From positions 1 through 52,543 of the forward strand of contig JAQIWT010000028.1 of NCBI GenBank assembly GCA_034696485.1: a stretch of 52,543 nt of DNA, given 5' to 3'. This stretch comes from Isohypsibius dastychi (lineage: Eukaryota; Tardigrada; Eutardigrada; Parachela; Isohypsibiidae). The position numbers and the translations under genes are program-made. Below the pieces are notes generated by a model, which did not search any database, was not told the DNA's origin, and was given only the letters and a program-made list of their open reading frames with translations. Position 1 is the stretch's first letter, and every line of letters starts with the position of its first letter. This document shows, in pieces, positions 13,835-51,579 of this stretch.

Positions 13835-16800
13835 CTATGAATTCACAACGGTAGACTGCATCCATTCGAACACTTCCAAACAAAGTTTGTAATCCGGATC
13901 ATGCTTCTTCATCACATGAACGATATTTCGAACTAGGTGATAAGTGGATTGCCCATCGGCATTCTGGTTGGCTAAAGATGAAAAATCCTACAAAGAAAAA
14001 GAGAACGTAGAGAAAGTCACCAATTTCGGATACCGGTTTGATTACTTTTAGACAAATCAGAAAAACATAGAATAAAAGAAGAAAATTTCTCACCATCGAT
14101 CGAATCCAAGAAACCATCTTAGGAGTCATCGTCGACAAATTTCTCGCGTAATCAGTTTGTGACGTTGTACTGGTTGTCAAAAGTGCAAGCCGTTGTCCAA
14201 CCAAGGTCAACAGTGGTTTCAAAACCGGATTCTTGTCAGTGATGGCGCCGAAGACACCTTCACCGATCTCATCCATTCCATGTGAAAACAACTCCATAAC
14301 ATACATACTCCGCGTTTCATCCCCACTTATTTCCCAATAGGTTGCAATCTCCAATAACCGCTCAACCCATTCCACATCCGGCTGGATGCAGAGTTCCGAA
14401 GCAGTCCTCACAACGGCTGAGAAAGCTCGCGACAAAAACTGAAAAGTTAGTAACGTGAAACCCATATCATCCATCATCTAGGTCACTCAAACCTGCGTTC
14501 GATTTTGTAAAACAGTTTGATCGACTTCCATAACAGAGAGAAGTGGGTGCGATGTCAAATCTTGAAAGAACGCTTCCTTTCCTTTGAAATCGAAGAGTGA
14601 AAGTGGCTTGACGTTTTTCAGGTTGAATTCCATAATTGCCCGAAGAATATCGAGGAGAACGAGGTGGTGTTTTAAGAGAGGAGCTGTTGTCAGAGGCTGC
14701 AGGATAGAAAGCTCAACCACGGATGTCCGAACTGTAGTCTCAGCTTCAAGCCAAAGAAAGTCGTGTTGCGGAGCAAACGTGTTGGCCGTTGACGTTGTAT
14801 CAGCCTGGAAGAAAGAAAGACAGCGTATTTGAAACCCTGGAATAGTTCCGGGAATGATGAGCCATGTACAACTTACATCGAGCATATACCCCAGAAGTTT
14901 GTGAGTTAAGACGAGAAACGCAGACACAGCTGACTCGTTCATATTCATATCCCGGGTGAACAATCTTTCTTTTGGAACTTTCCCCACCTTTTCGAGCAGG
15001 TTTGCAAACTGCGACACTCGTTCAGCTAAAAACGTTTTCCACATCAGGAATGAAAGCCCTAAAAACAGAGTTAGTTTCAAACGCCAGATATGAACTTCAA
15101 ACAGCGGTTGAACCGACCATGCACTATTGGTCCATCAACGATATCCTTCAGGTACATCACAGCAGTATTCAGCACCGCAACTTCCTGTGGATTCTTGCTC
15201 CAGTTAACCACCGAAGCCCAAGCACATTCAGCCAACAAAACATCTGGATGAAGGCTTTTTGGAAAGATTGCTTTCAGGACACTCAGAGCTTCAGTGATTT
15301 CTTTTTGGTCAAACAGTAATTCTTGCGTGTTTAGAAACCTCAACGGTCGGTCATCTTTTTCTTCCGATTCGAGTGATGGCAGGCGAATTTCGATGTCAGA
15401 TGAATAGAATGACTTCATAATTGCAGTCGGCGGAAGATCCAGAAAGCCGTTTGATGTCCAGGAAGCAAGATACTCGGCTGCGGCGCAACTTCCACGTGAA
15501 ATGAATTCGCGGACGGAGAGCTGATTGGCATCAACCAAAGACTTAGTTACAGGCATGAAGCGCACCAAGAAACCCTGCAAAATATCCATAATTAACTGAA
15601 AATTCTGCTTGGAATTACGCCACATTCAAATTGTGGATAATAAAAGAACTGCAGGCATGGTTCACGAAAATGTTCCAAGATGGTGTTAGAAACTCTTATA
15701 GATATTGTACCTGAAGCGAGAGTAGACTCTCGATGCGTTGAGATAACCGGGTCCATTCAACGGATTCCTTGCAAATGGACTCCCACTCATCTGATTGAGC
15801 CTCCACTTGCTGATCCAAATTTGAACGGGGTAAGAATGTGGTGATGATCACGAAACTGAAAGTCAATGCGGCTGGAAGATTACGAGTGTTCTCAATGAGC
15901 AGACGAGTTTCTGGCAGTGCTTCAGGAACCTGAATGCCAAACAACGTTGAAAGAAACGACTGCAGCAGTTCCAGCTTTCCACGTAAATCACCTGAAAAAA
16001 CACATGGATCGATCACAAAATGGCGCAAAACATTTTACACAAACGAAATCTTGTAATAAGTGGTTCCGGACACCTCCGTACCTGACAAATCGAATTTTTC
16101 TGACAGCCAGAAACGCACAAGCAGACTGTAGACTTCATTTTTCTCCAAGAAACCGAAAACATCTTGAAAGTCTCCACTGGTAGCGATTTTTCCCAGAAAG
16201 TATGCTTCAAATAGAATCCGCAGAAAATCGAAGGATTCGAGGGAGTTTCCCTCATCCTGTATCACAGTAATCACACCGTGGGAGTCCTGATGTAGAGCTG
16301 ACTGACAAAGATCCACGAACGTTCTCCAGTCAATCACTTTGATCTCCGAACCCGATGGTTTCCGAGCTGATGCGACGGAGGTCAGAAGCGGGAATCCGAC
16401 GCTTTCGGAAATCTCATTCAGTTTCTTCACAAAAGTTTCATCGAGCAGGGAGCATCGAGAAGATTGCTGCGATAAACGTTTCCAACTCACGATGATCCGC
16501 TGAAACAAATCAGTTGTCAATCGCGGAAACTACGTTTGCATGACGTCCACACTATGCACAACGCAATTCCAAGAATATCTTTCAAAATCGCAATAAGAAA
16601 AATTCGAGACCAAAACTTCAGCAATTTTAGCTCACAGAAATTAAGTCATACTTGTGTAATAAAACATATAGGTATTATTACAAAAGTGCTTCATACCAAA
16701 CGAAGTAAAACACAAATCCACATTATTTTCGATTGTATTCGGAAAGAAGCTATATTTCAATACCAGGAATCAGGGCTGGCATAGCCCAGCCCAAAAATTT

Positions 16801-25178: not shown

Positions 25179-26011
25179 AAGTTTCGGCAACTTGTCCAAC
25201 TTGGGATGTGCGGCTTTTCAGTAGCTGCTGTGTTTCCGTTTTCTTCTTCATTTGTTTCTCGTAACATGCCGAGTTCAGTTTGTCATCCTGATTTTGTATC
25301 TAACCAGTTAGTAAGACTTCGTGAGTCTGATGAAGCTAGCGTCACTGTTTTTTCTATTGTTTGTCGAAAATTGGCTTTAATTCGGAAATATGCTTGCGTG
25401 ATCGCGGTTGGGGAAAGAAAAAAAAACTTCACCGGAGAAGATTATTTCCATAATTTCCAGCTGTATGATTGATTGGTAGAATAGACGTTATCTGCTGTCA
25501 AAGACGAAGTTAACGTATTCATTCTGGATTGTCTCAAGTTCACTATACCGGTGATCCAATCCAAAGTTCCAAACGGTTAACCAGTAACTACGTCTCCTCC
25601 AATAAGTTCAAGCCACTTGCCCATCTCCCTTCAGTCAATCGATAGGGCAAAGGTGGCTTGAACTTATTGGAGGAGACGTAGTTACTGGTTAACCGTTTCT
25701 CCCTTCAGTCAATCGATAGGGCAAAGGTGGCTTGAACTTATTGGAGGAGACGTAGTCGTTCGGCGTTGTTGGAACCTGATAGGAAATCGTATTCTCGGCC
25801 TGAGCAACAAGCTGTCATGTTCAGCTGATTCGAAAAGGCCATAAAAATTCTGATATTGAATTTTTTGTTTTTGTCCATGTTCGGTGGTCTCATCGATTAA
25901 CTGACATGGGTCGCGGAACTTCGGGACGGAACTAATTGTCGCTGTTTACGGACGTGATACTAAGAGCATTGTCATCAGCAGCGTTCTCATCATCCAACGG
26001 ATTCAATCAAC
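25179..26011. other. CCT3 to MATH-BTB intergenic region
   Basis: Same-strand gap containing the CCT3 3' end, the hairpin/direct-repeat block at 25571-25756 and the promoter of the MATH-BTB gene. An 88-codon plus-strand frame at 25206-25472 shows no family features. Confidence 0.5.
25571..25756. repeat. Perfect 46-bp inverted repeat overlapping a 59-bp direct repeat
   Basis: 25571-25616 and 25653-25698 are exact inverse complements (46 bp) around a 36-base loop that can pair further (TTGCCC with GGGCAA). In addition, 25624-25682 is repeated exactly as 25698-25756, a 59-bp direct repeat with a 74-bp period. The perfect identity implies recent origin or gene conversion. There is no coding potential. 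Confidence 0.92.
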
Positions 26012-29631: not shown

Positions 29632-32600
29632 ATGTTCGTGGATCTTGAAAATCTATTATCATCGAGTGAAGTCGGAAAATTAGTTCTGCTAGTCGGAGAA
29701 GAGATCCAGGCTCTCAGTGCTACGATCGCATCATTCAGTGTTCCGAACGAAGTTTCATCCGCTGTCATGAAATGTAAACAAAACATCGATGTGAGTTGAT
29801 GGATGTTCGAAGACTGGAATCATGGACCACGGGCATATTATCCGTTCGTAGGCTTACATCTCCAAACTTGGTGACATTTATGTTAAAAACGGAGCTGCAG
29901 CAGTGTTTAAACCAAAACAGGCGGGACTGGGGGCAAAACGTTTGGCTAACTGCACCCGCCTTGTGCAAACCCGAGCATTTACGGGGGTCAGGTCAGAATC
30001 GACTAGCCGTGACGGACGCGAAGTCGCGAAATTGGATCACCGAAAAGCCGTGAAACTGGTGAAGTCATCAGAGGACATAGCCAGTCGCAAACCCAGTCAA
30101 CCTGTAATTTAGTTTTCGGAATATTGTCTTCTCTAGATGCAGACTTATGATTTACTAGAGTAAAAGCAGCAAGTCTGTTCCTCGGGGTCTCATTCTTCTG
30201 CGAAGGAAAATTGAGAGCCTTGATAAACCGATGTGCAATTGGCGCGATCACGACGGCTTCCAGTACGGATTTCAAAGAAAAGAACAAGGTACAGTTCTAT
30301 CTGCCTTTAGACGCCCTAAGACACCATCTCAACTCTTGTTCACGATACAACTGTACATTATCTGCTTGTAGGGCGATGCTCCTTATCAAAATTCACTGAT
30401 AAATCCTCCCCAAACCAAGAGCTTCAGAGCGTACCGGCCACTCCCCCCTCCAACCTAGTGGTTCAGAATTATCTGTTACCACACACCTTACCTTCTATCA
30501 TTATACGAGATGGAAAACTGGACGAAAACGACGCGCAGCTTGTTACTGTTCTCACTGCCTTCTACGATTTCATTCCAAGGTCAGCTGGTACGGGCTTGGT
30601 GTTTTGCCAGCAGGTCTAGCCGGCAAGTAATCATTCTATTTGGCTTTCAAATAATCTAAGGTCAATTCCAGAATCGAAGCAGTATTACATGCCATGAAAG
30701 ACTTTCTCAAATCCTACAACATCCCAACTGCTTCCATTACTGCAGCCAAGCTGGGCAAGAAGGTCACCAATCTCGGAATGCGAGATGTGTTCTCGAAAAG
30801 CGAACTAGTGGACCTGCTCGATAATAAGGACGAGGTTATGAAATTCTTGAAAACTCCGGTAAGACCGGAGTATATTGATATCAACTTCATCTTGAACGAA
30901 GCTTTTTACGCCAGGGATGGCGATTCAAGGGAGAGAATGGCCGAAACATCGCAGCAACCGTTTTACAGGCGAACTGGCGACGCTTCTACATAAGACGACA
31001 CTATCTTGAATATAAACGGAGGCGAAAAGCAGCCAATATCATCTCAAAGATTTGGATGCAGTGGATGCAGACGAAAGCTATCCGTGAAAAAGTGGTTTTC
31101 ACCAGAGAACAGGCATACCTGTTCTATCAAGAGAAGTCCAAGGTACAAACTGCAAATACAAAAGTACATCGATAGGCACGCTGGTTCTTGTAGTAGGAGC
31201 TCGAGATCAACTGGAGAAGTTTCAGAGCGAACCGACGAACATACATCCACATGCCCTCCCTGGGATGGGAAGAGAAATTCCGACAAAAGGTTCGGGGCAT
31301 TGGCCTTCGGGAAAACCGACAGTTTGGACGTCTCGGTGACTTGAGAGGTATGACAGCTGTTTTAGTGGATGTGTAGCCGCTTGTTCTGGTCGCTCAGATT
31401 TTTACTACGTAAACGCAGTTCATCGCTCTACGCAGACACCCAATCCTTTTCTTTGTTCTCCTACAGATTCCAACGTCACCGTGATTTATGTTTCCCCAAT
31501 GCCACTACAGGATCGTGATACCGAATATTCTCGTCAATTTATTCGGCTTGCTAGCATGGGTCACGAATCAACCGAACAAGCTATGAACAAACGCTTTTCA
31601 CTAGAAGTCCCGGTACATATCGACCGCTTTCCGGTCAGTATACCCCGAATTCAAATTAAGACTTGGAACGATTTTGAGCCTTAAAATAATAGTCCCCGTG
31701 CAGGCATCCGAGTTCTGCCTTTCCACGCTATTCAAATACAGTGGTGTGAGCTTGCATTCAGTTCGAGACGCCATCAACGGTCAACCTGCTTGTTTAATAA
31801 GTGGATTCCCTCATCTTGACGACCTCGAAGTCGCTCATTTCCTTGGAGTGCCGTACCTCGGTATCGATCCTCACTTGGCTTCCATTTTCGGAAGCAAGTG
31901 TGGCGCACTCCGCATTCTGCAGGAAGCTGGGATTCCGCTGCCGCCGTGCGAATCGAACGTTTGCTCACAAACTCATCTCATAGAAGCGCTGTCAGTCCTG
32001 ATTGTGAAGAACCTCGAAATTCCAACGTGGCTGTTCAAAACCAACCAAAGTCATGATGGCCATGGGATTGCCACGTTTGCGACAAACGATCTTCCTTGTT
32101 TAAAATGGTTGTTCTTACAAAGATCCAAGCGATACAACCAATGGCAGTTTACCTGGGCCCATGAATACGTACTCACACGAGTTCAGGGGGAGCTGGCGAC
32201 CGTTCTACCTAAAGCTGCCATCATTTGCAATACGACGCTTTATCAATCTTGGGGGATCTATATGCAAGATTTCACTGAGAAAGGTGGTGTTATCCAAGCT
32301 ATGCCACCGACGACAGATTACACCTGTTTGACGGTTGACGTTTTCATCGACCCCGAAGGACAATTTAGTATCGAGGGTTGTGGGGACCAAATAGTCGACC
32401 GACGCCCATTTTCCAAATTTGGCATCACTATTCCGCAGACCTCAGTGTCACCTGAGCTTCTATCAGCATATATCAGGCAAATCGCAAAAACAGCAAGATC
32501 GGTTGGCATCATAGGTTATCTGTCAGTTGACTTCGTCACATTCATTGACGAAAACAGCCAGGTATGGTCAACCGGCCATTTCTTCTTTTCGTATGAACTG

Positions 32601-33322
32601 ACCTCTATTTTTTGCTCTAGCAAACAGTATGGGGAGTCGATCTAGGTATAGGCTATTCGGACAGCCTCGCTCTGTTCAACGTCGTGACCTTTTCCCTGAA
32701 CGCCTGGCTTAATCAAGAAAGTTTGGTTCTGGAAACTAAGGCGCGTATTCCAGCCGGAAGAAAAAAGCTCAAGCAGTCGAAAGATGTAAGGGTTCAGAGT
32801 GTTCCCGATTAAGTGATATAGCTGTGATTATCGAGCACAGGTTTCTGTCATCACTTCAAAATTTGCCGTCGCAAGCTGCGCCTTATATCACAGCAATCTA
32901 GAGATTCTTCCTCCAAATATATTCTTCCAAATTTGCAAATCTATCAGTATGGAGCTCAGTCCACTTGTAAGTGGTGACAAGTTATACCATCTGATGTACG
33001 GTTTCACTTATGCAATGTTTTTTTACAGACGAAAGAAGGCACAATTTTTCTCCCCGTGGATAACTTAAAACGAACGTCTATGGGAATGGTGTAAGGAAAC
33101 AGAAAGTAAACTGTCTAGATTCTCAGTGACTTTGTAGCTTACAGAGTGATAGCTGATTCACTATTTACCGCTGTCAGTAACTACAGCCAGAACCTGAAGC
33201 TGATGAACGAAGAAATAACCAGCTCAACTATTCAAGGGGATAACAATTTTTCAACAGCACACAGCACTCTGAGGAAGATTTTGCATCAGGTGTCTGGGAA
33301 CCAAGTTAGGGAAAGCTCTTGA
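29632..33322 (+). CDS. IQCH: IQ motif-containing protein H
   Basis: Sperm/cilium-associated calmodulin-binding protein with an ATP-grasp-like C-terminal region. Thirteen exons: 29632-29790, 29852-30103, 30159-30288, 30372-30579, 30672-30858, 30915-31142, 31197-31347, 31467-31633, 31704-32561, 32621-32785, 32841-32966, 33029-33090, 33145-33322. They give 956 aa, against 1027 for human. An IQ motif, IAATVLQANWRRFYIRR, appears only after removing a 56-bp intron. Family blocks are RTYIHMPSLGWEEKFRQ, NVTVIYVSPMP, IPTWLFKTNQSHDGHG, GGVIQAMPP-TDYTCLTVDVF, SVGIIGYLSVDFVTFI and VWGVDLGIGYSDSLAL. Most introns are 55-120 bp. Confidence 0.93.
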
Positions 33323-37308: not shown

Positions 37309-40300
37309 TTACTTCATAGGGTCTTTTTTACTAGACAAAAAATGACTGCGAAAGGTCCCATATGCACTACAAAGCGGTATTTTCGGTGTCCTCCTACTTT
37401 CATAAATCACTTCGTCCATAGCGAACGGGTTCGCGAATTCGTCGGTTATCTCGACAAACAACTTGTTTTTCTTGGTCTCCCGCTTATGCCTTTTGACAGT
37501 TTCCAGATCAACTAAACAGTCTTCGGTGCTTGGTTCCTCGACTAAGACGGACGCTTCTGTGACCAACTGTTCTTCGGCCTTCTGTTCGGGAATGTCATGT
37601 TCAGAACGGTGTAAGATCTGCTGAGGTTGTTCAACATCAAATCTTTTTCGTTTCATGCGTGGAACTTCAGGTAACTTCCGTGGAATTCCTGTCTCAGTAA
37701 ACAGACTGATCTTCGCGTAATCCTTCGCGTCGACCTCGTTCTTGGAAATCTTCTCAGTTTTAAACAAATCACCGGCATCCGATTGCTCCGAAAGATGCGG
37801 GCTCTTGAGGGAATCATACTTTTTTGTCAACACAGCGTTCAGCTTGCGAACTACTGCTATCAATCTCGTGTTTCTCGCCGTCACTGGAATATTTGTACTG
37901 AGATGCGAAGACTGGACTGCTGAGCTAGAATCGCCACACTTGTGAGCTTTCCCAGGATGTGATGTGTCATGTTTATGTGGGTTGTCAAAACTTTCATCCA
38001 GTGTCTGTTTGCGGCGATCATCTTCCTCTATCAAAAAGCGAAGCAGCCCTTCATTAGCCGGTTGCATCAGGTATCTCGCCAACAAAGGGTGAAATGGCTC
38101 TCCAAGATTACGAAGAGCCATCTCAACGTGCTCTTTGTCTATTCTCTGACCCATTTCCTTTTTCGTCAGAGCTTTCATTTTTTCCTGATAACGTTTATTC
38201 TCGTACCCGTCGCTAAGAATGGAATCCCGTAGTTTCTTCTCTTCTTTCTTTATGGCTGCCATCATTTCACGGAGCGTGTCACCATACAATAACCCTTCAC
38301 TTTGTAGTTTGACATACTTCATTTTCAGCCAATTCGGCAACCGTTTCATCCACTCTGACTGGATTTTCTCGATGCTGTATTCGTAGATACAAGGTGGGAG
38401 TAACTTTTCAACACCTTGGTAAACGGTCATTGGTTTTTCTTTGATATTCGAATACACACTGATGTCTCCGTAGACGTGCCTGTGGGCGGAGCTCATATTT
38501 GACCAATGTTATGAACAATCACGTGAATAACTCACGTGATGGGCGACTTGAATCCAAAATACAAGAATTTTTTGTCGTCCGGGACCGGATCTTGATGACT
38601 GCGTACGTTGAATTCAAATTTAAACAGGTTCAGATCTTCATCGGGCAGATCGATTCCCGTGGAGCTGGGAGTGTCACGAGCAGGAATCGCGTCCACTTTT
38701 CTATTTTTAACTACATCCAGGGTCATTCTTGAGCCATGCGTGATGTCTGGCGGGACTACCGCTCGTGGTTTTGTGAGCAGATTCTCGTCACTCGCTACAT
38801 CTTTGATGGAGTAACTACTTGTAGCGTTTTGGGCACCCTGCTCTTCACGGCTTTGTGGATGGAAAATGTCCTGACTGGTATCGATATAAAGCGCATCCTT
38901 CTGGCCAAGTGATCCAACATACAATCCGGCAAAAGTGAAGAGTCTGACGGAACAATCTTCTGACGCCGTCACGATTATCTTTGAAAACAAAATTTTGGCT
39001 GAGCGGAGAAATCGTGTTTAAGACAGTGTTTTACCTGACGTCTGGTCACGACCTCCAAAGACGAAATGGTCTTGGAATGAGCTCGGAAGCTGTTCAACAT
39101 CGTGGGCCATTTAAAGAATGGCTTGTGTCTGTGATCTATTTTCACGATAGTGAGTCGGTAAAGAGCGTTCTCTCTGATGGAGACATAGGGTGCGAAGTAG
39201 CGAGGATGTCGAATCATTGGGTACGGGCGTGGGTCGAATTCGTGTTGATGGGCATTCAAAGTCACATTAGCCCAGTCACAAATGAACCAAATTTTCACAT
39301 AACCAGCGCTGTCGGAGGTAAATAATAATTCGTTCTTGTCATCCGTGTACATCTGGGTGACAAAATGGTCTGCTGTATGTCCGCCAAAAAACAGGGCTTT
39401 CAAACCGCCATGCGGTACGACTGTAGACCAGGCACGTACAAATCCATCTATCGAGGCGGCCAGAATTGTAGCAACACTCGCGTCGTTTTGCTCACGCTGG
39501 CTCAGATGTAGTAGACTAGTGACTGCCTCCTTGCTGGGATTGGTCAAAGGTGGAATACTAATGATGTTATCTTGAACTTCATCTCTTATATTCTCTCGCT
39601 CACCAAGACTAAGATTGTTCTTTACGCCATGGTAGGGACTGGCCTGTTCTTGCAAATGAAGAACTTCTTCTAGTTCGCCGCTGTCTTGTCGGAACACGCT
39701 GGGATGATCAAGAGTTTTCTGAGAAGCCGTTTTGTTTCTCGCCGATGTGTTGAGAGCAATCAACGATCCGTCTGTGTGCAGGTAACATTTTGGAATCCCA
39801 GAAAACAAATCCCACAAGATTATTTCGCCGTCAAAACTCGCGGAGATCAAAAGTGATTTATCATCGACGAGACAGGGATCCAGCTCATTAGAGGTTGATT
39901 CAGACGTTGTATCATCACCGTTGTCAGAGATAACCTTCGTCACGCTGCCTGACTGTTGCGAAGACGAACTGGCTAGGTCAGGTGTATCGTTCTCGACTGG
40001 ATTAGGGTAGATGACTTCCACTGCAACAATGTCTGAACGGTGGATTACTGGCCAGTGATATTCCGTAGGCTCGATATCGTCTTCGCCACGGGTATCTCTT
40101 GTCATGAATATGTACTTGTCGAATCCTGCTGCGATGACTAGATCTCTGTTTCGATGGTATCTGACAATGTTCACGTCGTGAGTGGCCAATTGAGCAAAGC
40201 TTGATAAGCATGCCCCATTATTGAAGTTCCACATCTTGATTAGGCCATCCTGCAATGTTTGAAAACGTTACCTCTCGTTATTCGATAAAAATTTAGTTGC

Positions 40301-43211
40301 GGTGTTTGTGACATCACTGTGAGCTGGAAGACTCATGCTTCTGAAAATAATCGCTCAGCTATTACCTCACCAACAGTAACCAGTCGTCGCTTGTTTGCAT
40401 CGAAAACCATGTTCTTGATGGCCACCGGAATTTTCCCGCCAGCATGTTCATGGAAGTGTGCGTTTGTAAACTGGATGATCTTTTCACCGGTCTGAAAGTT
40501 CCACACCATGATCGTCGATTCTTTGCATCCAGAAACAACACAGTCAAACAGATCATTGTAGAGTGCGGCCACCACAGGCTGTTTATGTGTCTGGGAGTGT
40601 GTTCCAGAGTCTTTGTGTTTAACCACAAAATGTCGACGGATGGTGAGAATCTCCCGGCAGCCAAACACCACTTCTTCCGTGCTCTGGTTCAGAATCAGAA
40701 ACGATACAAAACTCCGCTTCACTCCGAGATCTGGGTGCTCGAATTCTTGATGCAGAGCGTGTTCTTTGATGTCAAATACGCGAACAGTTCGCATAGCATC
40801 AACCGTAATTGCGGCGGAAAAATGATTGCTTGCCGTAAGCATGACCTTTTCAATGGACATTCTGTGCTGGGGAAATTTCATTTGTGGTTTGTCCAGAGAG
40901 TCTGGTGCCCAAATACAGAGAACACGATCTCGACCGCATGTGGCTATCAAATGCAGCTTGTGGTTGTAGTCGAAACAATTGAATCCTCCATGACGATTCG
41001 AGATTGTCAGTGTTGGCCGACTTGTTTGGATAGGAATCATTGAGAGAGAATAAACAGGGTCACTACTGCAAGCTATGATCTGTACATCAAAGTAAGTTGC
41101 CTTCACAGCACAATTGAAAACTGTTCACTTACACAATTAATTTCCGAGGTGAATTTCATCCGCAAAATCCATTCATCCGCTGCTGGCGTAGCGGCAATTG
41201 TGAAACATTTGTCACTCCGTTTCAGCAGCGCCCATGCTACAACTCCATTTGGGGGCTGGCTGACTCCAAGTGCGGACCAAAAGCCGTCATAAAACAAGCT
41301 TTCGAAACGAATACACTGTATGAGGCCTGCCTGGTCCGCGAACAACAGCAGGCTCGCGTCTTCGCGGAAAACGTAATCCAAACACAGTGGCGGATTCGGC
41401 AACCCGAAGACGACGCAGAAAACAGTGAGCACGTGACCGTTCGTGTGGTAGAACTTCAAGAAACCAGTGCTGAATGCTGAAAATATGCAAGCTGAACTGC
41501 GCGGAATCGGAACCAGATCAGAACACACCTACAACAAGATCTCGTGTCTCCGGCAAGCAAATCATATCACAGACTCTCTCGAAACATGCCGCTGATTTGT
41601 AAGCTGCGATGAGCGGGTAATCGACGCCAGATTGGATGAAATCAATAGACCAGCATTTCACAAGACCGTCCAGTGTTACGGAATAGTACTGTCCGGCAGA
41701 CCAATCTATAAGATCGGTTGAAGAGGCCGTGATATGGGAGCAGAAGACCATGCATTTAATATCGTGTTCAGCCGTCGCTCTTATTCGCGGCTTTGTGTCG
41801 AAATAAACATCTCTGCTGAGCTGGTTCATAATATCTCGTTCTTGATACTCTCGTAGTGTGTACTCCAAGAACTCGTCCCAATCTGGAAAAAAATAATTTC
41901 TTAATTGGATTCGTTCATCCAAAATATTTTTGCAGTTGTGACCCTTTTCACTCTAGAACGAAAATGGACCGCGCTCCGAGCTACGTGGCAGGATAATGTG
42001 CAAGGTGACCAAAAATGTTGGAACATCATCATAGACAGTAGAAAGACACGAAACGGGGACAATTTTTAGTAATGGTTTTGGATTACTGGTACGATATTCG
42101 GACAGACCTACGTTTCCGTCACAGTTGGCATCCACCTGAAAAAGATCTGTGAGTGTGACAGACTATGTACATTACCGTGAGCGGCTCAGCTTGCCTTCAT
42201 GAAGATGAGCTCGATTTCTCGTTCGCTCATGCTATCCCCACTTATTCTCCGCATTGCGATTTTGAATTCATCGATATCCAGGCCAGGTTCATCATCCATG
42301 TCAGATTCTTCAAAAATAATCCGGAGTTTCCGCAGGCGTTCTTTTGCTGAAAACACAACGGCGTCCTCGGACTCAGTTTGCCCCACTGTTCCGCCATCTT
42401 GTGCATTTTCACTATGGATTTCTGACTCTGATTTTTCGGACAACAGTTTGGCAAGCGACTGTCTTCCGCTGGTCATCTCTTCAACTTTTATGGGCTGTGC
42501 ACTTTCGTCTCTGCGTACTTGGCTTTCTTCATCCAGAACCGAAGAGCTACTGTCATCGACCAAATCGAGCTCAGCCGAAGACGGACTTTCGATGTCTTCA
42601 ATACTGTGTTTTAGGTCTGCCAACGCTTGTCTGTTCATTTTGTAGATTTTGCAGTTTTCCAGGTCTTGATCTGATTTCAGCTCGAGATAGTCATTGAAGG
42701 TTAATCCAAATTTCTTTCGGAGGCTATACAGCAGAAGTCGTTGATCTCTCGAATGGAAAAGAAGACCCAACACCTTTTTAGGCTGGTTGTATTCCAGAAT
42801 CTGTTGAAACAGGATTTCGGGACGTTGGGACGTAATGAGGAGTCGGATCCATTGATAATGATCACGCCTGTTCTCAAACAAATCTCCGCCGAGTGGGTAT
42901 TCTCTGTTGATTTCATGGTTTTTCCACACAGTTTGCAAGTGATGCCAGAACAGTCTCTTTCCATCGTTAAGATTGTGGAGCTTCTCATAGAACGCAGACG
43001 CTCGAAGACGTGTTTGAGCCAGGCTATGGGGTTCTTGCTGGGTCTGGTTATGAACAAGATGATGGTGGTTTGGGTGTTTTTTCAAGAGATTACAAACACG
43101 GTTGTATTTTGTTGGTTCAGCATCTTTCATTTCTCGTAACTTGTGTATAAGAGGGAACATTTTTTCTGGCAATATTACAACAAAGGAGGGTATGCAAACG
43201 ATGTGAGACAC
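37309..43211 (-). CDS. Large EF-hand / WD40-repeat protein (WDR49/WDR64/WDY-like)
   Basis: Eight exons (42195-43211, 42108-42135, 41529-41882, 41133-41476, 40366-41100, 39035-40249, 38536-38978, 37309-38491) join in phase to 1772 aa. The N-terminal helical region (about residues 1-260) leads to an EF-hand pair; the second loop, DANCDGNVDWDE, has all canonical ligands. WD40 units follow: HLIATCGRDRVLCIWAPDS, DCVVSGCKESTIMVWNF, KRRLVTVGEDGLIKMWNF, LLISASFDGEIILWDLFSG, LFTSDSAGYVKIWFI, ITVTASEDCSVRLFTFAG-like. A basic C-terminal extension of about 390 residues follows the last unit through a 44-bp intron. The intron after 42195 begins GC. The EF-hand plus WD40 layout is that of WDR49/64/EFCAB8 and fly WDY, found in cilia and testis. 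Exons upstream of 43211 are possible. Confidence 0.85.
42136..42194 (-). other. GC-AG intron in the EF-hand/WD40 gene
   Basis: The exon ends ATC TTC ATG AAG and the intron starts gcaagc; the next exon starts GTG GAT GCC after TTTTTCAG. The join gives F-M-K-V-D-A-N-C-D-G-N, a standard EF-hand entry. No GT donor keeps this frame. The intron is 59 bp. Confidence 0.8.
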
Positions 43212-43928
43212 GGAGCCAAAGGCCCCAGGTTCTATTTACTCTGTTAGCGATGTCAACAGTCATCAAGGTTGTTTAGCAAACTACCAGTTCGAATTGAAGG
43301 CTCTTTCGATTTCGAAAACGACGAAAGATTTTTATAAACAGTATGCTCTTTCATCCGTCACGTAAATCACAGTTATTTTCATCCGACAGGTATTAATGTC
43401 ATCTTCACGCATCTGATCTTTGTTGGAAAGCGCAAAAACGACGTTGACATAGCTCTTGATTTTGGTGTCAATCTTGCAACAATACTCAAATTAGCCTTCC
43501 TCTTTTCGTTGGAGCAAAAATCACTTCAATTTTAGACCCTCTCCCGATCGCATATTGACAATTCAAAACATTTCTTGGATTCGGATTATTCTAGACAGCG
43601 TAGTGGGTACTGTTTCTGGAGTCGACCAGAAAAAGAGCTGTTATGGTATACGGTCCAGCGCTTCCCGCTTCTGTGTTGGTTCTCTCTATTAAATCTCCAC
43701 AGGATGCTTGCAGTATACCTCCAACATTTTGTTAGGATACCGACAGATATTCGCTACCCGACTGATTATAAAGATCACACGTGGTGTAGAAGTTTTATAC
43801 AGTATTCAGCCACCGCATACGACAACCCAGTGAGGGCTAAGACATACCGTTAAAAGCGATATTAGGAATGAAATTAATCCTCTTCCACTGCAGTCAGTCA
43901 AGAGAAATCATAGATATGGCACCTGCAC
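43212..43928. other. Intergenic region before the receptor array
   Basis: A same-strand gap between the WD40 gene start and the receptor A stop. A 92-codon plus-strand frame (43575-43853) is Trp/Tyr-rich but has no family features. No kinase-homology or guanylate-cyclase exon for receptor A was found here on the minus strand. Confidence 0.45.
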
Positions 43929-46697
43929 TCAAGCGCGCGTATGAACCGCGAAAGACGCATTCCCGTCTGTATCGCTAGCGGTATGTTCGACCGCCAGCAT
44001 TCCGATCAGTTTTTCTTCTCGAATTCGCCACCAGCTAAAGTAAGTTTTCTTTGCTTTCATCCCACTACAATATTGCATTCGATTTAAAATGGCATCAGTC
44101 AGGTTTTAATTCCCGAAGGTTACCTAATGGCCACCGCACCAATCAAGAAAAGTACCAGCACTCCAGTTGCAGCACCTCCTGCCGTACTAACGACTGATAT
44201 GTTTGCTAAAACCAAAAAGGAGGATTTGGTAAGAAACGCGGAGACATGTATGAGGGAGACACTTACAGTTGACAAGACAGATGACATTCGTACCAAGGTA
44301 TCCACATTTTGGCTCGTTTGGAGGTGGCCAGTTTTTATTAGGCCAATCAAGTACAGGCAGTGAAATGTTAATGGAATCATCGACTGTTTTGTGAACGTGA
44401 ACCTAAGCAAATTCTTCATAGATGGCACTCCAGACAAGCTCTGCTCACCTACATATCTTTTGCCATCTCGGTCAAAACATGAGACGAAAGTGTCGACACG
44501 TCGCTCTCCAAACTTGTTGATGTATATAGGGAAGGCCTTTGTATCGAAATAGCGGCCGAGTAGTTCTGTCGCAATAGCTGTGCCGGTTGGATTCTGTGCA
44601 ACAGTCTGCTTCTTCCTGGCGTCTTGGATAGCCTGGATGAGAAACAATAAATTTTCACTCATCTGGCAACAAGTCCACATCTCAGCTGCCCACCTCAGCT
44701 AGAGCGAACACTCCGGCGTAAGATGAAGCAATTACCAAATACTGCAACATCAAAACTGATCTTCAGACAACTGGGCTGTTCTTTGCCACAGCTTGTCGTT
44801 CCTACCCTTCCATCAGCTGGATAAGAAATATTGAATTGTTCCAAGGAGCGTCGCCGCATTTCCACTGCCAGCGGCAATTTCTCATAATAGTCTTGACTAT
44901 TCTGATTTGGGTGAAAAAATAGCACAGAGCGAAAAGCTTTTTTGGCGATCTGGAATACACAGGTCATCACATATGTATGAAAGACCTCAACATTTTATTG
45001 CACCTCGTCATTTCCATCTTCAAACTGCCAGTCATTTTTTCCGTAGAGTATCGGGATGTTTGCATTTGGTTCAAATGCCATGTAAACCTGTGTGTAGATG
45101 AGTTGTATTTTTCAAACTGTTCTCCCAGCGCCATGTTGCCTCTGAAGTAAGGTGTAATGACACTACTCACGTGTTCCCCATTCGTCATGTTGTTTGCATG
45201 TGCAGCGATCTATGTTAACAATAAGTTACACCTTCCGGTAGCAAGAAACGAATGGTTGATACGAACCATCAAGTTACGGAACTTTTCTCCTCTTCCGAAA
45301 AAGCACAATACTGAAAATGACCAGATAAAAGTTCCAGTTATTTCAGGAAACTGCATCAGAGTGACTTGCTTCTGCTTGTCTCTTGAAAATAAGTGAGAAG
45401 TTCTTTGAGCTCTTCTGGCTTTCCCGAAGTAATGGTTCGAGTGTAGTACCGCATCGAAAAGCTTGATGAGTCTGCTTTCAGGAGATTTATAAATGCCAAG
45501 TAGACAGGCACTGCTCCAACATCAGCGACCAACAGCACGGTTCGCCATCCGTACATCTGGAACACCTTTGCATACAGTTCGCAATATGAAAGCAAGGATG
45601 TGGGGGCGGTAGTGATCATCGTTGGGTTCAACAGCCTGTTTTGTGTAAGCCCGATACTGGATACTCTAAAAGTGACACAGTGTGTCTGACGTTGAACCTT
45701 TAATTGACCTTGCACTCACGTGGCCAGAAAGAAGGTATACCAGACTTCAGCCATTCGGCTGATGGCAGCAGATTCCGAACATGCTGAAATCAACCAAATT
45801 TCTAATCACTCTAATAGGCGCTGTGTCGAATTTTATAGTTGCATAACTTTCAGGACAGCCAATACAGGTAACAGCTGGCTTACCCCGCCAGTCTAGAAAA
45901 GATTTTCAGTTAACAGTATGATATCTGTACCCACCTGGAGCAAATAATTAAGTAGCTGGGTATATACCATATCATATGGTCAGACTCGATCGAATAGATT
46001 AGAACAGCATGAAAAATTCTGCCATGCACGCAAACATGTAACTCAATGTAATATCAAATCAATACTTTACAGCATCATGTTTAATTCAAAATGTAAATAC
46101 CATTATGACGATAGTACGTAATCCCTTTCATTTTATGAGCATGCTTCTCCGTAGCGTCATCAGTGTTGCAAGTTAATTGTGAATTAAAGGTGCATCCTAA
46201 CCCTCCTTTTTCAGCAGGATGTACTTTATAGACGTTACATTCTTCACGTGCTATTCAAAGATACGTGACTGAGAAGAAAAAATTCACCGAAAATATAGCA
46301 ATCAGATTTTCCTGTATTTAAATTTTGATGTTATCGGATAACTACTGTTTTTTCCGATCTTACCTGGGTTAACTATTACGGATAGTACTTCAGACGACTG
46401 TCGCCGCTCATGGTAATACCATTTCGCCACCATGTGCTCAGCGTTGTCCATAAAGCTACCACAGTCTGGATATCCTTTTTCATAGTATGCTTTGACTGTG
46501 AATTTCAAGCTCCCATTGTAAATCAAGTTCACGTCTTCCACGGCCAACTGCATAGCAGGCAAAGTGTATCCCAGAGATGACAGGCTAGTTGGTTGGATAA
46601 ATCCGAACGAAGCGATATCCACCTCAAGTACACTAGACGAAGCCAATGCCAGGAGAAAAAACGGATGGCAGGTGCGAAGCATTTTCAACCAGGACAT
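43929..46697 (-). CDS. ANF-type receptor A: ectodomain, one membrane helix, short tail
   Basis: Twelve exons (46364-46697, 45720-45783, 45370-45665, 45267-45310, 45171-45209, 45004-45087, 44806-44949, 44694-44741, 44453-44632, 44267-44402, 44124-44205, 43929-44034) give 518 aa in phase. A signal peptide (MSWLKMLRTCHPFFLLALA) is followed by a periplasmic-binding-protein type I / ANF-receptor ectodomain: FGFIQPTSLSSLGYTLPAM, INPGACSESAAISRMAEVW-like, YGWRTVLLVADVGAVP. The juxtamembrane motif WPPPNEPKCGYLG matches receptor guanylate cyclases. After one helix (TGVLVLFLIGAVAI) the tail is about 36 residues (SWWRIREEKLIGM...), with no kinase-homology or cyclase domain. The layout recalls the clearance receptor NPR-C. 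An upstream ATG at 46742 is possible, but 46697 makes exon 1 the same length as in receptor B. Confidence 0.85.
45311..45369 (-). other. GC-AG intron in receptor A
   Basis: The exon ends AGC AGA A and the intron begins gcaagt; the next exon begins TATTGTGC after TTTTCAG, giving S-R-I-L-C-F-F-G-R-G. The only nearby GT shifts the frame into a stop. The same junction in receptor B uses gtaaat at the aligned position, so the donor dinucleotide differs between paralogues. Confidence 0.8.
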
Positions 46698-46742
46698 TTT
46701 TTCACATTTCGTTCGAACCCGCATGCCATTCATATACTCCAC

Positions 46743-47873
46743 ATGACAAGGGTTAGGCCATTATGAGACGCATTTTGACATTAAGAAAGCAAGACCTGGA
46801 GGCAAAGGTACTCTCTTTAGATTAGCAGTCGTCTCTGATCCTTGTGGAAGCTAAAACCAAGACAGTAACGGGAATTTTGTACAGGAAAAAGTGCTTGTTG
46901 AGGGCGATACGTACATCCTGGCACGCAGGAGGATCACAGCGTGTACCCTTTGAAATGAAATCAGATGGTTTTTCATATCCGCATGGACCTGACGCCGAAG
47001 TTTACGGTATTGTTTTCGGTAACACCATAAGCAGCCTTGAAACCTTTGACGATGCGGTGCAGGCTCAAGGTGGAAGCTAATTACGTGGTGCAATGACACC
47101 AAAAAACATGTGTGTTTTGGCTTATACCCCCCTTGGCTTGTTGTATGCTCTCGCCGCAGACCGACTGAGCGCAATTCTACACGTATAAGTTTGAGGTCAT
47201 TGCATGTCGGACTGTGCATAAAGTCTGTCTGGAAGATCGCAGTTAAACAGGCAGGTGACCTTTTGCGGTTCCCAGTACACGGCTAACCTGACTCCAAGTA
47301 TCATATGTCAGTGATTCGCTAACACTACATTAGAATATTCGAAGTATGACCTGGAGCAAACATAATGACCTGGAAAAAGATCGTACCAACATTCAGATCG
47401 GATATCTTCTTCGGAGACCTACGTCGCAACTGCTTTGATTAAATAAGCTTTTATCTACTACTGCGTCGATCTTCAGGAATGTCTGCTGAGCCGAACCTCA
47501 GCCTGTAAAATGAATTTATGCGTGAAGCTCTTTCTAGTCATAACGTCTGAGACAGAAGAATGCACCTTCAAATATGTTGTTTAATTAGAGAACATCAGAG
47601 GTGGTATTTCATTCACACTGGTTCAATATTTGACAGACATTCCTTGGAAGATTATGATGAATGAGTCTGCTTTTACAGGGAAGGTTGGTTCACCGCATAC
47701 CCAGAATGCATTCGCCCACGTAATCGTTGGTCCTATGGGTTTTGATGCACGTGTCGAATGGGAGAAAACTCTTACGCGAATAAACTGCAGTCCATCTTCC
47801 ACCACTCAATAGTTACTCTCTTCGATACCAATTTAAACCTAGAAACAAATTTGATTCTGCCTCATGGTGACGA
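46743..47873. other. Region between receptors A and B
   Basis: No exon with receptor similarity and no transposon was recognised. A 60-codon minus-strand frame at 47623-47805 has no homologous partner in receptor A. At 47850, TTGTTTCTAG could be a 3' splice site giving receptor B an alternative short tail (SLNWYRRE, then stop) joined at a GTAAAT donor near the annotated stop. Confidence 0.4.
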
Positions 47874-50211
47874 TCATTTACTATCAGAATACCCAAAATA
47901 AGAAGCTCCTACTAGAAGCAGAATCATCACTGCGGCCGCGGCTCCAGAAACAATTTTTACTGTAACGGAGATTCCCGCTGGAGCAACAAAAATCGGACGT
48001 GCACAGTACGTCATTCTATATTGCAAGATGACGTACATGTTTGTTGACAGATGACATCCGTGCCAAGATATCCACATCTTGGCCTATTCGGAGGTGGCCA
48101 GGCATCATTCGGCCAATGGGGATCAACCTCATATTTATCGAACACGTCATCAGCATGTTGATGCATGAAGATCTGTAGACATGGTGTAATGAGAATCACG
48201 CTTCCCAAAGAGCTATTTTCCTTACTATTTGAGCGCCATTGCGGTCAAAAAATGATACAAAAGCATCACTTCGCCTTTCTCCAAGATGGTTGACGAACAC
48301 TGTTCCAGCTGGTGTTTGGAATCGTCGGCCCAAAAACCCCTGGGCTAAAATTCGCCCGCTTGATATCTGAGTTAACGGCGTCGTTTCTCTGAGGATCTGA
48401 ACTACCTGAAATATACAGACAGTTTATCATGCTTTTGAAGTTAAGATCAGACCTCAAACCTGGGCTAAAGCAGACACAGCCACATAAGATGTAGAAAAAA
48501 TGGCTGCCTGAAACAAATGTGATCTACCAGATTATCCAATCAGAAATATTACCCAGCTACTCGGCCATCTTTTGGGTAAGTCAAGTTGAACTGTTCTTGG
48601 GAACGGCTTCGCATTTCAGACATCCATGTACTGTTTGTCGCATTGTTCAGGCTTCGGTCTGCGTGTACCAGCAACGCTGAACGGAAAGCCCTTTGTGCAG
48701 CCTGTAGTTGGTTCCAAAACAATTAAAATGGTTGAACCGACGTTCAAAATCACCTCATCAAAATCGTCCCCATATTTCCAATCTGCTCTCCCGTACATCA
48801 GAGGTATGCCGGGTATCACCTCGAACATTATGTAGACCTAACAAACACGCTATGGTTAGCTCGGGTGGAAGATTTTGGATCTGAGTTACATGCTCTCCTT
48901 TCGTCATATTTCTTGCTTCCGCAGCTAGCTGAAACCATGAGAATAAACATACGTAAGATTCGAAACATAAACTCTCACCATGAATTTACGGAAAGTGTCA
49001 CCTCGACCCAGAAAACACAGGACTGAAAAAAAGTCCTATTTAGATTACAGTTCTAGCAGCCAGTTTTGTGGTGTATTTAAAATGACACCCAATTACAAGA
49101 TCTATCTGATTTCAACATGAAACCACGTCATATCATCACACAACCGTTATCAAAGACGGAAAAACAAGTTCACGAGCATCGCTCTCTTAGAAAATCTCAA
49201 ATCCAGCCTGTTTTATCTAAAGCTATAATGAGTGAACCGTCATTCAAGTTTCAATCAAATCGTCTTCAGATTTCTCCTGACAGTGAAAATTTAGGGACAA
49301 TGACCGAACGGACTGGATATCACGAAAACGGTCTAATAGATATTTACCTCTGCTTCTTTCATGAAAGTAGCTGAGTACGTCGCTGTAGTCACTGGTCTGG
49401 GTTGAATCGAACGAATTTTCAAAAAAGCGGGTTTGAAGTTTTGGTTTCAACAGTTTGAGAATCCCCATGAACACTCCATATATTGGCAGTGAAGCCGTGT
49501 CATGGACCAAAAGCACAGTTTGCCATCTGTACTCGTTTAACAATGCCAAATAGAGCTGAGCATGCGAGGTCATTGCTGACTGAAAAGATAGGGAGACTGA
49601 TTCGGTCGGGGATTTGTAACGCTCCATCGGTGACAAACTGAGAAAAAACATTATAGTATGGCGCCTTTGTTACAAAAGTCGGTGAACCTACGTTGTCACG
49701 TAGAGGAGATCCCAAGTCTCTGCCAACTGTCTGATTGCAGGAGCTTTGGTACATTCTGAAACCAAGCAAATTTATCGATTAACCGCGTTTCAATCAATCG
49801 CATCGTATGTATCAGCAGTATTAGCAGTACGGATCCCTGAGATAAATGAAACTGACAGAAACCCCCGGAAGACTCACCAGGGTTTATCATGGCCGAAACG
49901 GCTGCAGATGAAGGTCGTCGATCCCGATAATACCATTTTGCAATCATTCTTTCCATATTCTCAGCGTAGGAAGCACAGTCCCGTTGCTCTACCTCGTAGT
50001 TGAATTTTGCAGTAAAAAACAGACTACCATTGTATTGCCGGTTCATGTCTTCCACCGCCATTTCGATAGCCGGCCAATGATAAGCAAGTGAACCTAAGCT
50101 ATTAGGTTGGACAAAACCAAAAGTGGCTATATCGACTTGGAGTATGTTGGCGATGACGATCGTGGAAGTCATCAGAGGCAAATAAAAAAGAGACATTTCC
50201 AGCAAAACCAA
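47874..50211 (-). CDS. ANF-type receptor B: ectodomain, one membrane helix, minimal tail
   Basis: Eleven exons (49878-50211, 49692-49755, 49348-49637, 48979-49022, 48890-48928, 48754-48837, 48561-48701, 48460-48507, 48226-48405, 48037-48172, 47874-47977) give 487 aa. Eight exon lengths are identical to receptor A (334, 64, 44, 39, 84, 48, 180, 136), which proves tandem duplication. The ectodomain starts VDIATFGFVQPNSLGSLAYHW and contains CTKAPAIRQLAETWDLLYVTT and WRWQTVLLVHD-like strands. The juxtamembrane motif is WPPPNRPRCGYLGTDVIC. After the helix (AAAAVMILLLVGASYFGY) only about five residues remain (SDSK). No cyclase or kinase domain is present. A ligand-binding, non-catalytic or decoy role is inferred. 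Confidence 0.86.
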
Positions 50212-50539
50212 CGATCTGCTCAGTTCCTTGTTCCCGTAAGACTCGCGATCGTTTTAGCGGACCGGCATCGACATGTTCCTACAGGAGTGTCATTTGTTTG
50301 AAGAAACGCATTATTTTGAGACGCGAAAAATAAGAAATAATCAGACTAAGCTCAAGTTCCTACTATTATATACTCCTCGACAAGGTTCCGTGACAAGGCT
50401 GATAAAAGAGTACAGGCGGATACCAAAAGCATCACAAAGAGTCTGCCAAATAACATCCGTGCAAAGAAAAAATGCCTAAACACACAATCAGCTAAGTGAA
50501 GTACCAGTTGAAGGTTTTTCACAACTTTCTTCTCATCTG
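50212..50539. other. Receptor B upstream region
   Basis: Gap between the receptor B start and the decayed receptor fragment. Exons 8 onward of the fragment are absent. It must contain the receptor B promoter; no TATA box was clearly identified. Confidence 0.45.
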
Positions 50540-50904
50540 ACAAATGATCACGTGTAAAAACCGACCGGAAAGCTCTCCGTGCAGCCTGTGGTTGACATTC
50601 AAAAATGCATAATCCAGACGGCGTTGATTGATGATCAAAATCACCTCGTCAAGCTTATCCCCGTATTTCCAATCTGCTCTTCCGTACATCAGAGGTATGC
50701 CGGATACCACTTCAAACGTTATATAGACCTGACAAGTATGCTATGGTTAACTAGGGTAAAAGCTTGTGTATGTGTTCTCCTTTCGTCATATTCCTCGCTT
50801 CTGCTGCTAGCTGAAGTTGTGAGGATAAGCAAAAGAGAGATTCAAAGAATAAACTCTCACCATGAATTTACGGGAAGTGTCACCTCGACCCAGAAAACAA
50901 AGGA
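50540..50904 (-). pseudogene. Decayed third ANF-receptor copy (exons 4-7 only)
   Basis: Four blocks align with receptor B exons 4 (50861-50904), 5 (50772-50810), 6 (50645-50728) and the start of 7 (50585 downward to about 50540), with exact exon lengths for the first three. The encoded pieces are LCFLGRGDTSRKFM, LAAEARNMTKGEH, a piece containing GIPLMYGRADWKYGD, and AARRAFRSVF. The donor after exon 5 reads CAC|atacac instead of gt, exon 7 loses similarity early, and exons 1-3 and 8-11 are missing. It is a relic lying 5' of receptor B. Confidence 0.85.
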
Positions 50905-51579
50905 CTGCAAAGATGAACATCAATAAGCAATAATAGAGCATAGTCCAATCGGCTATAAGCTGGCCGCTTCGCTAAGCAATGCTGAGTTAAATTTCCCGCC
51001 TCCCGCTTTGCCAAAGAAAGCGAAGCGGAATCTGCTTTCCTGTTGACAGTTCCGGCGAGGTTTTCGGTCAGACGTGTGAAAACCGGATTACTTGCGAGCA
51101 GCCGAAGGCTGGGAGTAAGTAATAGGATTGTACCCGATCGGTAAGCTATCATGGAAAAATTATGATCTGAGCTTCTGGCTCTTTCGGTTCGCTTAAGCTT
51201 GAGAAATAGTAAATACGTGCACAAAAATGTTTTTGCGACATAAGACAACTGAGAGGGCACGCAACACTGCAGTCTGTCAGCGAAACAAGACTGCTAGTAC
51301 GTATGCGTGCATTAATAGTCGGGCAGTAAAACCGGCGCAGTCGAGAAGTTTACCCGCTACTGCCGTTGACCACCTACTCTATTGAATTAATCGTCAGCTC
51401 GCTGCAACACAGATGGGACAGAAACTATAAATAGCATCGAGCGCGCACATTTGCACATTCGGTGATCACAGATTTGGACCAAGATCTGAAAGAGGCAGGG
51501 AGGATGAGTGAGTGAACTTTTGAAACCGGATGACAAGATGAGTGGTAGAAAAATTCCACTGGCAAAAATGAATTCTTTC
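50905..51579. other. Receptor-array right flank, no gene recognised
   Basis: The sequence carries no receptor exon. A 126-codon minus-strand frame (50880-51260) overlaps the decayed exon 4 and is rich in Leu, Arg and Ser without motifs. Several small purine-rich palindromic blocks occur near 50990-51130, possibly an old transposon remnant, unidentified. Confidence 0.4.

Follow-up and report, generated by a model that had tools for sequence, protein, structure and literature searches.

The window analysed here, the 52,543-nucleotide contig JAQIWT010000028.1 of the tardigrade Isohypsibius dastychi (contig 28 of a 30.4-Mb, 1648-contig assembly), carries two minus-strand genes, A (43929..46697) and B (47772..50196), whose products resemble receptor guanylyl cyclases (rGCs) without the kinase-homology and cyclase domains. 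The domain content of A and B and the point at which they are truncated are established from the DNA, as are a lower bound for the size of the family and purifying selection in five close pairs of short genes. A genome-wide family of such rGC-like proteins is well supported by the sequences. We consider it probable (about 0.6) that an old, expanded set of non-catalytic rGC paralogues includes A and B, and that its members act as ligand traps and/or dominant-negative dimer partners.

Structure of genes A and B

Splicing of A and B, done manually and repeated with a profile-based spliced aligner, resolved each gene into 12 coding exons. The exons of A lie at 46697-46364, 45783-45720, 45665-45370, 45310-45267, 45209-45171, 45087-45004, 44949-44806, 44741-44694, 44632-44453, 44402-44267, 44205-44124 and 44064-43929, and those of B at 50196-49878, 49755-49692, 49637-49348, 49022-48979, 48928-48890, 48837-48754, 48701-48561, 48507-48460, 48405-48226, 48172-48037, 47977-47893 and 47838-47772. 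All introns are GT-AG except for one GC donor (A exon 3), and both reading frames stay open over the 12 exons with consistent splice sites.

Both proteins show the same order of parts: a hydrophobic N-terminus, a PF01094 (ANF_receptor) ectodomain, a juxtamembrane Cys loop, one hydrophobic helix and a short tail. The ectodomain scores above the Pfam cut-off in both (E 6.5e-20 in A, 6.8e-16 in B). The juxtamembrane sequences, WPPPNEPKCGYLGTNVIC in exon 10 of A (44267..44402) and WPPPNRPRCGYLGTDVIC in exon 10 of B (48037..48172), follow the pattern WPPPN-[EPK/RPR]-CGYLGT-x-VIC. Columns C444, G445, Y446 and C453 are invariant in a 13-row family alignment (12 short genes and one full-length receptor) and form a putative Cys loop. 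A single transmembrane helix was predicted from hydropathy in exon 11 of A (44124..44205) and of B (47893..47977). Thus, the rGC-type ANF ectodomain, the P-K/R-C-G-Y-L-G motif and the single helix that the first-pass annotation had proposed were all found again.

At the junction of exons 1 and 2, the chloride-site motif GPxC, which is present in many rGCs (PMC5225109), appears as NPAC in A and as NPEC in B, with Pro and Cys retained and Gly lost. The same position is GPGC in all three 741 paralogues.

To the rGCs (NPR-A/GC-A and the nematode gcy type), A and B are alike in ectodomain family and length, in the juxtamembrane CG[YF]...C loop and in the single helix. Searched against solved structures, B alone matched NPR-C with 65 bits and NPR-A with 62 bits, and the 13-row family profile matched the two equally (NPR-A E 1.4e-29, NPR-C E 1.6e-29). 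The CGY loop of the profile aligns with the NPR-A segment PPPDVPKCGFDNEDPAC, and full-length NPR-A chains match, by end position, to profile position 494/495, past the helix. In contrast, the NPR-C alignment ends before the CGY loop, and its likeness covers the part upstream of the loop.

The clear difference from rGCs is that no kinase-homology domain and no cyclase domain was found in A or B, as had been claimed before. As queries we took 15 peptides encoded by kinase-homology and cyclase exons of L029 and L030, two full-length receptors found in this genome; none (0/15) matched the window below E 0.07. Contig 28 also appears in neither the genome-wide cyclase table (105 rows) nor the kinase-homology table (65 rows), and no kinase or cyclase match lies in the interval 43236..43928, which separates the end of A from the following open frame on the minus strand. 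As a control, L029 and L030 detected each other at E 4e-12 to 1e-29 in 6 of 8 exon types. The same queries also recovered five more full-length receptors (L033-L037) at E 2e-2 to 1e-48, depending on the exon. All seven full-length receptors examined carry cyclase and kinase-homology exons after the ectodomain; for L036 these are one weak kinase-homology exon match (E 0.01) and two cyclase exons.

We found that the last exon of A (43929..44064, stop codon 43929-43931) encodes a cytoplasmic tail with SWWRI and resembles the exon that in rGCs runs into the kinase-homology domain. Its acceptor at 44064 was picked by homology, matches the family better than an acceptor 30 nt downstream, and gives a tail of about 47 residues. 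The last exon of B (47772..47838) encodes EWWKMDCSLFA and a stop. Exon 11 of B is 85 nt long in the spliced model, a length that recurs in the full-length receptors rGC452 and rGC1453 and in the short models 1288, 221, 458a, 458b and 845; this indicates splicing to the WW exon, so that the tail would have about 27 residues and end in WWKMDCSLFA. A tail of 5 residues requires read-through of the donor, with exon 11 ending at 47874, and the longer tail is more likely from the sequence. The earlier lengths of 36 (A) and 5 (B) residues are revised accordingly.

A genome-wide family of short receptors

Genome searches used A, B and two of their paralogues as queries; the resulting tables are lower bounds, with coordinates copied by hand. 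Matches to the first exon were found at no fewer than 51 loci on 42 contigs. At five of these loci, kinase-homology or cyclase rows follow in the same orientation at a distance of no more than 9 kb; the kinase-homology domain lies 1.9-2.7 kb and the cyclase 3.2-3.6 kb from exon 1. The other 46 lack such a row over this distance. Of these 46, four or more (C616, C1001:12588, C173, C1250:1809) lie too close to a contig end to inform, which leaves at most 42/47, and C50 and C217 may also lie close to an end. The PF07714 kinase table, in which 141 of 301 candidates were scored, was not specific enough and was excluded from this census.

For 28 of the 46 short loci, the sequence of the contig was fetched. 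None of the 15 intracellular exon queries matched below E 0.1 in 20 short-gene stretches (L009-L028), and further loci (L038-L041) gave no match at E < 0.03, although L039 stops at the contig end. The family of short-tailed receptors proposed in the first-pass annotation is therefore well supported and much larger than described there. Its local array, with two intact copies and a fragment, stands as well, but short receptors are not confined to it. Since the same truncation occurs on many contigs, misassembly is an unlikely cause.

The fragment, C (50563..50911, minus strand), is an incomplete and decayed copy that corresponds to exons 4, 5 and 6 of B and to the beginning of its exon 7 (blastn, 77.7% identity to B 48679-49029 over 359 aligned positions with 18 gaps). 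Short genes or gene parts also stand in tandem arrays of two or three on C741, C1001, C458, C771, C623 and C1250 (L009-L011, L015-L020, L024-L025), as in birth-and-death receptor families.

Spliced models were made for 24 short genes, some of them poor in places: 406 in its 3' half, 1250a with its 5' end off the contig, 458a with exon 6 in pieces, and 221, 398 and 1501 with odd pieces. Four full-length receptors (L029, L030, L033, L034) share the 12-exon layout and the juxtamembrane WW with the short genes. In full-length receptors with WW, the exon after the helix starts about 10 residues before WWRIP or a similar sequence and runs into the kinase-homology domain. The start of this exon is retained in the short genes: with 406 and 173 set aside, 19 of the 23 usable short models contain WW, and the remaining four (177, 302, 1501, 398) have a single W. 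A plain text search found WW at the expected position in 15 of 19 downstream regions. At the corresponding juxtamembrane position, NPR-A has LWRV. The exon layout common to the short genes and the local full-length rGCs suggests that this truncation arose separately from that of vertebrate NPR-C.

The earlier comparison with NPR-C is thus fair as a description of layout, and is limited to it: the ectodomain family, one helix, a short tail and no enzyme are common to both. Unlike NPR-C, the short genes occupy dozens of loci and their tails vary. Read to the first stop, the tails span 18-85 residues (median 31) and are at most 47 residues long in 21 of the 23 models. NPR-C has a 37-residue tail and clears its ligand (PMC10253422). 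The comparable length of the 18-47-residue tails, together with the retained WW, would suit short genes that are signalling receptors in their own right, with an NPR-C-like tail that couples to a G protein or an adaptor. The WW in 19 of 23 models also suggests that selection may act on the inner side of the membrane. However, the sequence after WW is not conserved between paralogues, tail length varies over the full range given above, and no common tail motif was seen by eye, with no motif search run. We regard signalling of this kind as improbable.

The 20 short-gene downstream regions share no common open coding sequence past the WW exon. Similarity beyond WW is limited to 771a/b, 623a/b, 741b/c, 1501/398 and 741a versus 741b, and it is spread over several frames and both strands and interrupted by stops. 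A stretch of about 900 nt that follows 741a resembles the one that follows 741b (L019-L020, C741) in several frames, with no long open frame.

Age, selection and phylogeny

The duplication of A and B had been called recent, on the strength of eight exons of identical length. We found seven (64, 44, 39, 84, 48, 180 and 136 nt). Those of 64, 44, 39 and 136 nt occur again in most short and full-length models, so the equal lengths are inherited structure and do not date the duplication. The two proteins are 42% identical over 494 aligned residues and their synonymous sites are saturated, which indicates that the duplication is old. Fragment C lies closer to B (77.7% over 359 positions).

We compared nonsynonymous with synonymous change (dN/dS) in five close pairs of short genes, and obtained 0.19 for 771a/b, 0.29 for 623a/b, 0.26 for 741b/c, 0.19 for 1501/398 and 0.29 for 1288/458a, with bootstrap upper bounds of 0.25, 0.41, 0.34, 0.27 and 0.39, respectively; 1501, 398 and 458a are models with odd pieces. 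These values suggest that most short genes are working genes. In the last 40 codons (helix and juxtamembrane part), identity falls below the whole-model value in four of the five pairs (0.50, 0.70, 0.55, 0.50), and in 623a/b it lies above it (0.93).

Selection of this strength bears on whether the short genes are merely truncated pseudogenes in decay. Fragment C is decayed, and models 406, 458a, 398, 221 and 1501, with their odd pieces, may be damaged or mis-modelled. On the other hand, A and B are open over 12 exons with consistent splice sites, and dN/dS is not near 1 in any of the five pairs, although two of these include 398 or 458a. General decay is disfavoured and seems very improbable to us.

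A tree of 31 ectodomains (450 columns) was built with 406 cut to exons 1-7, 1250a cut to its 3' part and rGC240 dropped; 173, whose contig ends, was kept and not counted as short. A and B are sisters (support 99/97) within a five-gene clade with 771a, 771b and 1001 (100/99), which is nested in a clade of 15 genes that are all short (95/92). Four full-length receptors form one clade (100/99). Forcing the 24 short rows together lowered the log-likelihood by 7.16 and was not rejected (p-AU, approximately unbiased test, 0.108). Long branches (rGC479, rGC958, 498, 36) make the base of the tree unsure. From these sequences, the enzyme half was possibly lost once or a few times.

Possible roles of the short receptors

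Purifying selection on the retained ectodomain suggests ligand binding. The kinase-homology and cyclase domains would have been lost just past the juxtamembrane WW motif, leaving a selected ectodomain of the ligand-binding type together with the extracellular CGY loop, a single helix and a short tail. The short receptors most likely bind ligands of the same kind as the full-length receptors do and dampen that signalling. By one route, ligand would be held by the short receptors, as in a trap or in clearance, with uptake as in NPR-C. By the other, pairing driven by the ectodomains could join them to full-length paralogues in inhibitory dimers without output of cyclic guanosine monophosphate (cGMP). 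Class III cyclases in general require two catalytic domains. Because their active site needs two cyclase domains, a chain without one should make no cGMP, alone or in a simple dimer. We infer that ligand binding, dimerisation and a negative role are the most likely properties of the short receptors; the decoy, clearance or co-receptor role suggested before is plausible.

In C. elegans, ODR-1 and DAF-11 each supply catalytic residues to one cyclase site (PMC5225109). Non-catalytic isoforms of NPR-A impair wild-type cGMP output when co-expressed (PMC10665444), and such lowering of an active receptor's output by an inactive partner would be a model for dominant-negative action here. Unlike the short genes, which are separate truncated genes, these isoforms arise from a single gene by splicing and differ by small insertions or deletions (PMC10665444).

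The size of the family also raises the idea of chemosensory subunits, in which many ligand-specific short chains would join a few full-length cyclases in complexes larger than dimers and tune detection. The diverged short loci number in the dozens and several stand in tandem arrays, compared with five full-length loci that match in the first exon, and C. elegans uses rGCs as sensors, including an obligate rGC heterodimer (PMC5225109). However, a dimer of a short and a full-length chain has no second cyclase domain. Receptors of the rGC type are not known to form higher-order assemblies, which further counts against such subunits, and we hold them to be unlikely. A broader version is tentative and only a little less doubtful: more than 40 candidate non-catalytic loci against five full-length loci might form a chemoreceptor-like family, whose short chains would use the ectodomain and the juxtamembrane WW to give ligand specificity, or a veto, to a few catalytic chains.

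Several observations weigh against an old family of traps or dominant-negative partners. The dN/dS pairs exclude A and B, whose synonymous sites are saturated, and the best tree does not unite all 24 short genes in one clade and needs two label changes. Sequence distal to WW is not conserved between paralogues, which disfavours one conserved tail function. The first two kinase-homology exons diverge fast, and even L029 and L030 match each other there at just E 0.002 and 0.6-0.7. The profile used for spliced alignment ends in WW, which biases the choice of last exon towards one that contains WW. In several short genes, a possible splice donor directly follows the WW codons, so an unrecognised 3' exon is possible and the exact 3' ends of the short genes are uncertain.

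These donors would suit gene models that are incomplete, with transcripts that splice on into unrecognised or distant exons. However, contig 28 has no kinase-homology or cyclase row, beyond the WW exon no open coding sequence is common to the downstream regions, and the full-length controls place both domains within 3.6 kb of exon 1. Such incompleteness has, in our estimate, a very small chance of explaining the truncation. Splicing past the WW exon was followed up in the downstream regions and was unsupported.

Loss of a receptor's whole enzyme half is already familiar from vertebrate NPR-C. In this one animal genome, it appears to have founded a large, selected family that outnumbers its catalytic relatives with a like ectodomain. 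If confirmed, the family would be a natural test of the capabilities of rGC ectodomains when no cGMP is made, and its paralogues could be used to study how decoy or dominant-negative receptors evolve and diversify.

Among the matches listed in titles and the starts of abstracts of the open-licence literature, which leaves most subscription papers outside, no comparable multigene family is described. C. elegans has 33 ANF_receptor membrane proteins (e.g. nmr-1) and 30 guanylate and adenylate cyclases, with no obvious excess (PMC3534327). A 2006 survey of guanylyl cyclase expansion reports nematode-specific genes without homologues in tardigrade expressed sequence tags, and its available part does not mention receptors without the catalytic half (PMC1435932). 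The portion available of a paper on moulting-pathway receptors has no bearing on truncated receptors (PMC6660194). A protein database gave no relatives at E <= 0.001 for B alone (7998 scored candidates sharing most words) or for the 13-row alignment (7997). Animal ANF receptors should score in such a search, so the database is probably poor in animal proteins and the result carries no information on the distribution of the family.

Two minus-strand open frames lie downstream of A (38978-40267 and 42189-43235); one has WD40 repeats (Pfam E 4.4e-8), and the other has a weak EF-hand-type match (EH, E 0.0054, under the cut-off). Presumably they could be one gene like the WD40 proteins of sperm or cilia. 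Elsewhere in the window, 31605-32645 (plus strand) encodes an IQCH-like ATP-grasp protein (Pfam E 4.9e-69), which hints at flagellated sperm, and 15080-15625 (minus strand) encodes a RAB3GAP2 C-terminal domain (Pfam E 6.2e-19). A short tandem repeat at 25637-25789 has a period of 74 nt and 2.1 copies. Marker searches gave two lipocalin matches, both under the cut-off, and no match for COX1, for nematode cuticle collagen (one control matched, under the cut-off) or for the R&R cuticle domain, for which the controls were silent too, so that its absence does not follow. On another contig (L031, C573), apparent tandem genes of the lipocalin type were seen by eye around a PF00061 match under the cut-off.

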